Positions 2,445 through 49,187 of a stretch of DNA of 64,000 bases are shown here, piece after piece (position 1 is the stretch's first letter; each line of letters opens with the position of its first letter). Origin of the DNA: a virus; IMG/VR virus record IMGVR_UViG_3300043778_000098, positions 1-64,000 of that record; one strand, written 5' to 3'. Position numbers and translations under genes: made by a program. The notes under the pieces were generated by a model. It was not told the origin of the DNA. It searched no databases and worked only from the letters and a program-made list of their open reading frames with translations.

Positions 2445-2909
2445 GTGACGCCCGAGCAGAAGGACGGCTGGGTCGGCTGGCTGAAGGGGAAGCTCTCCGA
2501 TCGGCGGTTCATCGTCGTGGGGCACCATCCGGTGGACGTCGGCACGATGGCGGCGCTGCGCGCGTCGCTGCCGACGGGGACGGAGCTGCGGGTCGTCAAG
2601 GGGACCCTCGTCCGGCTGGCGGCCGGGCGGGCCGGGATGCCCGAGGTCCTCCCGCTGATCGCCGGGCCGACGGCCGTGGTCTTCACGGACGCCGACCTCG
2701 CCGTCGCCGCCGCCGCGATCGCCCGGAGTCCCGCCGTCACCGTGCGCGGCGCCGTCGAGGGGAAGCGGCTGCTCTCGCCGTCGCAGGTGAGCGCGATCGC
2801 GGCGATCGGCTCGCGGGAGCGGGCCCTGGCCATGGTGTCGGCGGCGCTGAGGTCGCCGGCGGCGAGGACCGCGACGGCCCTGCGGGCCAGGGGGAGGGAG
2901 ACCCGATGA
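2445..2909 (+). CDS. rplJ: ribosomal protein L10 (uL10), stalk base
   Basis: 154 residues from GTG at 2445, preceded by GAGGGGG. The sequence follows the L10 family: WLKGKLSDRRFIVVGHHPVDVGTMAALRASL, then LRVVKGTLVRLAAGRAG, then LPLIAGPTAVVFTDAD, a hydrophobic core, and C-terminal helices. In cells L10 binds 23S rRNA next to L11 and carries L7/L12 dimers on its C-terminal helix. It is slightly shorter than host L10 (about 165-180). It lies directly upstream of and overlaps rplL, in the usual rplJ-rplL order, and is preceded by an L10-type leader. It is surrounded by phage genes, so it is a phage-borne copy. Confidence 0.93.
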   Translation: MTPEQKDGWVGWLKGKLSDRRFIVVGHHPVDVGTMAALRASLPTGTELRVVKGTLVRLAAGRAGMPEVLPLIAGPTAVVFTDADLAVAAAAIARSPAVTVRGAVEGKRLLSPSQVSAIAAIGSRERALAMVSAALRSPAARTATALRARGRETR

Positions 2910-3283
2910 TGAAGCTGACCACGGCCGAGCTGATCGACGCGTTCAGGGAGATGACCATCCTGGAGCTGGGCGAGTTCACCGCCGCGTTCGAGGAGCAGTT
3001 CGGGGTGCAGGTCCAGGCATTCCCCGCGAACCAGGACGCGGCTCCTGCTGCGGACGTCCCCGAGGACGAGCAGACGGAGTTCGACGTCGTCCTCCGGGAA
3101 GTCGGCGCCCAGAAGATCCAGGTGATCAAGATAGCCCGCTCGCTGACCGGCCTCGGCCTGAAGGAGGCCAAGGACCTGGTGGAGTCGGCCCCCGTGACGC
3201 TCCTCAAGGGCGCCAGCGCAGGCGCGGCTGCCACGGCCAGGGCGGAGCTGGAGCTGGCCGGGGCGCTCGTCACCGTCAGCTAG
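2906..3283 (+). CDS. rplL: ribosomal protein L7/L12 (bL12), stalk
   Basis: 125 residues, close to the usual 120-130. The N-terminal dimerisation domain is clear (KLTTAELIDAFREMTILEL then FEEQFGVQVQAF), then an Ala/Pro/acidic hinge, then the complete C-terminal domain (EFDVVLREVGAQKIQVIKI, LTGLGLKEAKDLVESAP). That C-terminal domain recruits EF-Tu, EF-G, IF2 and release factors. The ATG at 2906 overlaps the rplJ stop (ATGA), so the two are translationally coupled. Both halves are intact, so the protein should be able to dimerise, bind L10 and recruit factors. The hinge is short and more acidic than in typical host proteins. Confidence 0.97.
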   Translation: MMKLTTAELIDAFREMTILELGEFTAAFEEQFGVQVQAFPANQDAAPAADVPEDEQTEFDVVLREVGAQKIQVIKIARSLTGLGLKEAKDLVESAPVTLLKGASAGAAATARAELELAGALVTVS

Positions 3284-48249: not shown

Positions 48250-48337
48250 GTGGTCCGGCGGCTTGACCGACCGCACGGGGAGGGCCCGGGGCTAGCACCC
48301 GGGTCCACGGAGCCCGTCTTAAGTGGGCCAGTCTCGC

Positions 48338-48411
48338 GCGCCGAGAGGGATTCGAACCCCCAGCACAGGGCTTAGAAGACCCTGGGTCTGTCCGATTGAC
48401 TGTACCGGCGC
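48338..48411 (-). tRNA. tRNA-Arg(TCT)
   Basis: Loop CTTCTAA; reads AGA. Acceptor GCGCCGG/TCGGCGC. Confidence 0.88.
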
Positions 48412-48417
48412 TCAGTT

Positions 48418-48535
48418 CGGTGCTGGTGTGCTGCTACGCCGAAGGCCTCAGGTCTTTCACCCGGCGTCGGATTCGGCCGGCCCCTATCGCCACTCCTTAG
48501 AGGATGGCTGCCTTTAAGCCAACCTTCCAGCACCG
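48418..48535 (-). ncRNA. structured RNA resembling the 23S rRNA GTPase-associated centre
   Basis: 118 nt closed by CGGTGCTGG/CCAGCACCG (9 bp). The core at 48491-48524 on the minus strand begins GGTTGGCTTAAAGGCAGCCA and continues TCCTCTAAGGAGTG. About 30 of 34 positions match the actinobacterial 23S rRNA helix 43/44 sequence as I recall it, and 26 of 33 match the E. coli 1059-1091 stretch. The helix-43 stem TGGC/GCCA and its 9-nt loop are kept, including the A equivalent to A1067. The helix-44 part is diverged. The 3' part folds separately (ACGCCG/CGGCGT). In rRNA this site binds L11 and adjoins the L10-L12 stalk; the phage also encodes L10 and L12. Confidence 0.7.
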
Positions 48536-48744
48536 GACGGGCCGCCCGGATCCCCGGCCGTCCGCTCACAGGTTAGCAGCGCTGCCCTCTGGGCTACCGG
48601 CGCCTGTCATCCCACCACCGGAGGGCGGGGAACCTGAACGCCAGTCTGCACCCCCACTCGCCGCGAGCGTGCCATTCGCCGCCCTCCCGGAGGGGGATCT
48701 GGTCCAGGGCCTCGTCCAGCAGCCAGAGCGCGATGCGCATGCTG

Positions 48745-48817
48745 TGCCTCCCCTGGGACTCGAACCCAGAATCCACGGATTAAAGGTCCGCTGCATTGTC
48801 ATTGTGCTAGAGAGGCA
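48745..48817 (-). tRNA. tRNA-Lys(TTT)
   Basis: Loop CCTTTAA; reads AAA. C33. Confidence 0.88.
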
Positions 48818-49060: not shown

Positions 49061-49093
49061 TTATCGTTTCGCCCGGTACGCCGGGCGGTGAGC

Positions 49094-49182
49094 AGAGGGA
49101 GTGGGTCTCGAACCCACACGGGAGTTACCCCTGACCGCTTTCGAGGCGGCTGCCGGTAGGCCGAAGCTCGGCTTATCCCTCC
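49094..49182 (-). tRNA. tRNA-Ser(CGA)
   Basis: 89 nt with a long variable arm, as expected for Ser. Loop CTCGAAA; reads TCG. Confidence 0.9.
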
Positions 49183-49187
49183 AGGGT

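Follow-up and report, generated by a model that had tools for sequence, protein, structure and literature searches.

A free-standing phage RNA homologous to the GTPase-associated centre of 23S rRNA

The DNA analysed here, a window of 64 kb from a 79.5-kb IMG/VR virus record with ~70% G+C, holds a tRNA array: ARAGORN called 39 tRNAs, which lie between 46.0 and 53.2 kb and without exception on the minus strand. Within this array and on the same strand lies a 118-nt unit (48418–48535), flanked upstream by tRNA-Lys(ttt) (48744–48816, minus strand), the nearest called tRNA on that side, and downstream by tRNA-Arg(tct) (48336–48411, minus strand), the next gene of the array, both called by ARAGORN and Rfam. 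Just upstream of the unit, a degenerate tRNA-like stretch (48530–48604, minus strand) has a possible 7-bp acceptor stem (GCGCCGG...CCGGTGC), the 3' strand of which overlaps the closing stem of the unit; this stretch received no ARAGORN or Rfam call and folded no better than shuffled sequences. A region resembling tRNA-Ser with anticodon CGA (~49093–49184, minus strand) was likewise reported by neither program. On the plus strand, two adjoining genes encode the ribosomal proteins L10 (uL10; 2445–2909, start codon inferred; PF00466, E = 8e-15, Pfam match 2448–2723) and L12 (bL12; 2906–3283; PF00542, E = 4e-24, a full-length bL12 match), confirming that both stalk proteins are encoded by the same phage as the RNA. 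The best PDB match of this L10 was mycobacterial uL10, which suggests an actinobacterial host.

The 118-nt unit, read from 48535 to 48418 on the minus strand, specifies an RNA with homology to the 23S rRNA domain called the GTPase-associated centre (GAC; helices H42–H44). It was the sole match in the 64 kb (E = 9e-5) for a covariance model made from nine true 23S GAC sequences and nothing else, and a second model, built from 45 phage relatives with the window excluded, again returned it alone (48537–48416, 77.8 bits, E = 2e-17); run in reverse on true 23S GACs, the phage-family model scored 38–55 bits. The two independent models strongly support the original prediction of a stand-alone mimic of the 23S GAC. 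That prediction had also pointed to an Infernal search with an LSU model: whereas the GAC-only model recognised the element, the whole-23S Rfam model (RF02541, LSU) gave no match in the window or the whole record, because an insert splits what is a short element. The element is therefore not an rRNA gene, as had been anticipated.

The unit is closed by its own H42-like stem of 9 perfect base pairs, exactly as first described, with a 5' strand CGGTGCTGG (48527–48535) and a 3' strand CCAGCACCG (48418–48426), both on the minus strand like all parts given here, and with column pairs that covary in the family. Next comes the H43 hairpin (48501–48525; E. coli 1057–1081), identified by identity to 23S and by compensatory changes, in which the equivalent of U1060 is at 48522 and that of A1067, itself an A as predicted, at 48515. 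The junction and the 5' strand of H44 follow (48491–48500; E. coli 1082–1091; CTAAGGAGTG) and include A1084, A1085 and G1087–G1091, near-invariant among the relatives selected by their 3' block. Between the equivalents of 1090 and 1091 a 51-nt insert (48440–48490) enters H44, with a base helix of a G-C and three covarying pairs and then a CUUYGG linker; behind this insert, 51 nt downstream of the 5' half of H44, stands the H44 tip (GCGUAGCAGCACAC), present as GCGTAGCAGC plus ACAC (48426–48439; E. coli 1091–1104) with a phage-specific A at 1101. The likeness to 23S first reported, about 30 of 34 positions over 48524–48491, is real, but its extent is better given as up to 30 of 37 positions identical to bacterial 23S over 48527–48491 (E. 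coli 1055–1091). Its assignment to H43 and the 5' half of H44 was correct, but overlooked the H44 tip at 48439–48426, where 11 of 14 positions are identical. In energy-based folding, with models that ignore tertiary contacts and protein, the lowest-energy secondary structure of the window copy lacked H43 (P ~0.001), the median P across 75 members being 0.54.

The window element belongs to a widespread, unannotated family of phage RNAs, found in many large phages within the tRNA gene clusters. BLAST of 421 bases of the window against named phages returned tRNA matches only, and a long pattern copied exactly from the window matched nothing; a shorter, exact 17-mer of H43 was therefore tried, and this opened the family. 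It occurred in seven viral contigs, all seven extending to a common longer block outside rRNA and six having tRNA genes in the sequence retrieved. With a gapped pattern for the 5' half, at least 119 contigs were then obtained, and with the 3' block alone at least 120 stretches, so that the prevalence stated here is a lower bound. Of 64 distinct, previously unused sites read from the 3' scan, 61 carry the 5' GAC core 56–396 nt upstream together with a closing stem: scans by either half alone recover the same RNA. The common plan consists of the closing stem, GGAUGUUGGCUUAGAAGCAGCCAUC, UUUAAAGAGUG, an insert of 28–350 nt, CUUUGGCGUAAUAGCACAC and the second strand of the closing stem. Since the last block, CUUUGGCGUAAUAGCACAC, is the H44 tip of 23S (GCGUAAUAGCUCAC), the insert splits H44. 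The window conforms to this plan in its GAC 5' block, H44 insert, CUUUGGCGUARNAGCACAC block (here in the form CUUCGGCGUAGCAGCACAC) and closing stem. In 84,980 prokaryote genomes the 3' block alone occurred just 8 times, mostly in metagenome-assembled contigs.

Altogether at least ~150 distinct members were gathered from viral contigs, in addition to at least 17 named isolates among twenty-odd INPHARED records, so that the search in related phages proposed at the outset was amply answered. The named carriers include Cronobacter phage GAP32, Pectobacterium phage CBB, Serratia phage BF, seven Erwinia phages, Pseudomonas phages pf16, Astolliot, Milchi and UNO-G1W1, Xanthomonas phages XacN1, XaC1 and XbC2, and Aeromonas phage 4_4572. 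In none of the named INPHARED carriers is the element annotated as RNA, and any annotation beneath the match is a hypothetical protein; in most of those examined the element lies between annotated genes, and in Milchi a small ORF on the opposite strand has been called across it. Two of 50 large contigs hold two copies and the remainder one; divergent copies within one phage were seen in contig IMGVR_UViG_3300028364_000014 (L007 and L118) and also for L049. A contig fetched for its tRNA alone matches the family model at 34.8 bits (L148:11191–11254, minus strand). Three members (L103, L106 and L361) have a closing stem and flanks that still resemble 23S H42 (GACAGCCAGGAUG...CACUGGCCGAG) and, judging by this resemblance, are possible links to an rRNA ancestor.

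The association with tRNA genes extends across the family: a tRNA was present in the retrieved sequence of 62 of 90 members, the nearest one being on the same strand in 62 of 62 and within 300 nt of the element in 48 of them. As for recurrent neighbouring proteins, no family was found at more than 4 of ~90 neighbourhoods, and none hints at L11 or ppGpp.

Comparison of the members indicated that base pairing is maintained. In the 45-member alignment, from which the window was left out, 88.6% of cells form standard pairs, compared with 35–52% when partners were slid and 68% after shuffling, and the values for H43 and the H44 pairs are 98.7% and 100%, as expected of a GAC domain. Changes on both sides affect 11 pairs of the closing stem, two of H43 and four of the insert helix. 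Compensatory changes in H43 fall at 1058–1080, 1057–1081, 1064–1074 and 1062–1076; in the 3'-selected set the C-G pair 1064–1074 is replaced by A-U in five members and by G-C in one, and the G-C pair 1062–1076 by A-U in three. Closing stem, H43 and insert base thus all covary. Two outcomes named as refuting the original prediction, an unconserved spacer and a plain degenerate tRNA, do not apply: the element is kept and covaries across the phage family, and neither ARAGORN nor Rfam called a tRNA, or anything else, at 48418–48535.

Which bases are fixed was assessed by scoring each half-selected set only at columns not used for its selection. U1060, G1063, C1072, A1084, A1085, G1087–G1091, A1098–C1100 and C1102 are at or near 100%; of the bases that build the fold, U1060, A1085, G1087, A1088, C1072, G1091, C1092, G1099 and C1100 show no variation and G1071 almost none, while the buried bases 1069 and 1070 vary in 18–25% of members. 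A phage-only change in H44 replaces U1101 by A in 98%. Exposed positions behave differently: A1096 is kept in 69% and U1097 in 43% of members, and A1067 is an A in only 67% of 61 3'-selected members, the remainder having G, C or U, whereas A1067, A1096 and U1101 are each at 100% in the 23S sequences used for comparison (18 distinct sequences, mainly from Bacillota and Pseudomonadota). The A1067 equivalent, said at first to be kept, is so in the window and is replaced in about a third of members. This pattern, with fold bases fixed while A1067, A1096 and U1097 vary, indicates that the fold is under selection and that the tip bases known for thiostrepton or factor contact are relaxed. A1067 is the crucial determinant for thiostrepton, and A1067 mutants leave the GTPase activity of EF-G unaffected (PMC5829649). 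Its variability argues against a mimic of the thiostrepton site or factor contacts in general; for the thiostrepton/nosiheptide site, an A at 1067 is found in the window and not throughout the family.

In light of earlier work, L11 is the candidate ligand. The 58-nt GAC folds on its own and is the site of both L11 and thiostrepton (PMC4409310), and by analogy with this known L11-binding role of the rRNA the phage RNA probably binds L11. A fold kept across unrelated phages, with closing stem and arms varying, is best read as an L11-binding decoy, which is also the best of the options that the original prediction had listed. We tentatively envisage the following course: an RNA gene of the phage, with the 23S GAC as its origin, would be transcribed together with the tRNA array, fold autonomously into the GAC tertiary structure (H42-H43-H44) with a variable extra arm on H44, and act in trans by binding host L11, thereby keeping L11, or L11 together with the stalk L10(L12), off ribosomes. 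Capture of L11 would damp L11-dependent events, in the first place RelA activation and ppGpp synthesis and perhaps also factor-dependent steps of host translation; in the phage of the window, the free GAC could in addition take up the phage L10-L12, completing a stalk base outside the ribosome. As L11 is essential for the activation of RelA by starved ribosomes (PMC7058999), such a decoy would give the phage a concrete benefit. The decoy as such may well be wrong, and the decoy effect, its target and transcription alongside the tRNAs are somewhat more doubtful still. Against it stand (i) the H43-less energy fold of the window copy; (ii) the variable buried bases 1069 and 1070; (iii) the lack of a neighbouring gene related to L11 or ppGpp; and (iv) the abundance of ribosomes, for which a decoy would be needed in large amounts.

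The inserts bear on an alternative, an adaptor or scaffold whose GAC part attaches to L11, on or off the ribosome, and whose variable arm has the activity, recruiting RNA or protein specific to the phage to the stalk base. The insert helix begins with G1091 paired to the C of CUUUGG, followed by three covarying pairs; the entry point of the arm in H44 is thus between 1090 and 1091, which keeps the tip hairpin, GC-GUAAUA-GC, whole. About ten 3'-selected members carry a further insert at 1077/1078 and otherwise retain the core (L305, L318, L323, L331, L334, L342, L347, L350, L353, L355 and L361), so that inserts use two entry points only and leave the core undisturbed. Large and variable as the H44 inserts are, 23 of 90 share a module, CACCCC-(GNRA or UNAC loop)-GGUAAGG, at a fixed spacing, mostly 17 nt, before the 3' block (carriers include L002, L004, L007, L020, L021, L034, L051, L072, L090, L141 and L144). 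This module, the covarying base helix and the second insertion site would all suit an adaptor, but the insert is nearly absent in some members (28 nt in L106, the shortest, and similarly short in L131), so an active arm is not universal, and we regard this role as unlikely.

Another conceivable role is that of a substrate decoy, the RNA soaking up a host defence nuclease, a toxin or an rRNA-modifying enzyme whose point of attack on the ribosome is the GAC. Phage tRNAs may similarly compensate for defences that cleave tRNA, and by analogy the same-strand location in tRNA arrays would fit a joint role in resisting attacks on the RNAs of translation, as would a retained fold with variable exposed tips. 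Against this, the exposed tip bases of H43 and H44 are those that such an enzyme would see best and are the variable ones, and no defence enzyme is known to us to cleave the GAC; this explanation is distinctly unlikely.

Assembly of the RNA with L11 and the stalk off the ribosome, into a free 'factor-binding centre' capturing translational GTPases or RelA, appears improbable. Here the stalk would be formed by the phage L10-L12 in the window's phage and by host L10-L12 elsewhere, the H44 arm would tune the partner, and host translation or the stringent response would be switched during infection. The narrower proposal of a platform that forms a ribosome-free stalk with phage L10 and L12 and recruits EF-G or EF-Tu has very little likelihood. 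It draws on the adjacent L10 and L12 genes of the window and on the presence of L12 above the Pfam cut-off in 9 of 50 carriers and 0 of 35 other tRNA-bearing contigs, a co-occurrence that is suggestive only because the carrier contigs are larger. However, none of 50 other carriers has L10, and none of 50 records, the window's phage among them, has L11. With these absences and with full L12 in only a minority of carriers, a platform for phage stalk proteins does not hold as a general role, and the general partner of the RNA must be a host molecule. Phage proteins that match the L12 C-terminal domain over its first half only are encoded by some RNA carriers (records G004, G013, G021, G023, G025, G027 and G041), sometimes as neighbouring pairs.

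A sink for the thiopeptide antibiotics (thiostrepton type) of competitors, to which the rRNA element is a binding site (PMC4409310), is highly improbable and was rejected on the G, C or U found at A1067 in about a third of 3'-selected members; moreover, the family spans phages of very different hosts. Some database matches are indeed real 23S contamination and were set aside (contig L116 and Paenibacillus phage Pd_22F, L142), but as an explanation of the family, 23S contamination or a chance-acquired rRNA fragment has a negligible probability, being refuted by covariation and also by the phage-specific A1101, the conserved insert site and the independent finds in isolates and contigs. The Pd_22F record (MZ092003.1) contains, near 84 kb, genuine 23S sequence that includes both the GAC and the sarcin-ricin loop and probably stems from host DNA or a misassembly. 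Copies of the sarcin-ricin loop were found alongside the GAC in true rRNA only. Matches on plasmids appear to be ordinary 23S of plasmid-borne rRNA operons, as were all three sequences inspected.

In H43 and H44 the phage RNA resembles the bacterial 23S GAC (H42–H44, E. coli 1051–1108) in both sequence and secondary structure; it also shares the fold-building bases and the character of an independently folding domain. It differs in being a free-standing gene with its own variable closing stem, in having A1101 rather than U1101 and an unfixed A1067, in the 28–350 nt insert at 1090/1091 and sometimes another at 1077/1078, and in matching no Rfam LSU model. Like the L1 operon operator and the L10 leader, it is a copy of a protein's rRNA site outside rRNA, a case of 'molecular mimicry' (PMC10931766); unlike these leaders, it lies in tRNA arrays with no ribosomal protein gene behind it, and any action would be in trans. 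Rfam leader models gave no match in the window, tRNAs being the only hits, and the element precedes tRNA-Arg rather than a ribosomal protein gene. Phage-encoded ribosomal proteins (bS21, bL12 and others) are similarly phage copies of parts of the ribosome, L12 being of the stalk region, but they enter ribosomes (PMC6375957), whereas the phage GAC is an RNA with its own closed stem and no obvious route into 23S. With the tRNAs of phage arrays it has location, strand and probably transcription in common, and it is not a tRNA. The GOLLD and ROOL RNAs, large and ornate, are likewise structured non-coding RNAs of tRNA-rich phages and lie near tRNAs; the phage GAC RNA has no Rfam match to either, is much smaller and shows clear homology to 23S.

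Copies of ribosomal proteins and of tRNAs are familiar from viruses. As far as the searched literature and Rfam 15 show, no record exists of a selected, virus-encoded version of an rRNA functional centre that works as an RNA of its own: no family in Rfam 15 matches, and no report of a phage GAC RNA was found in a literature search that left preprints and most subscription papers outside its reach. The phage GAC RNA points to RNA-based viral interference with the control of the host ribosome. It is common, yet unannotated in cultured phages such as pf16 and 4_4572, and it comes with a clear prediction, the binding of L11. If the L11 decoy is true, the phage would be using RNA to counter the stringent response or factor-dependent translation, and the natural variants of this RNA would constitute a large and informative set of mutants of a much-studied RNA-protein site.
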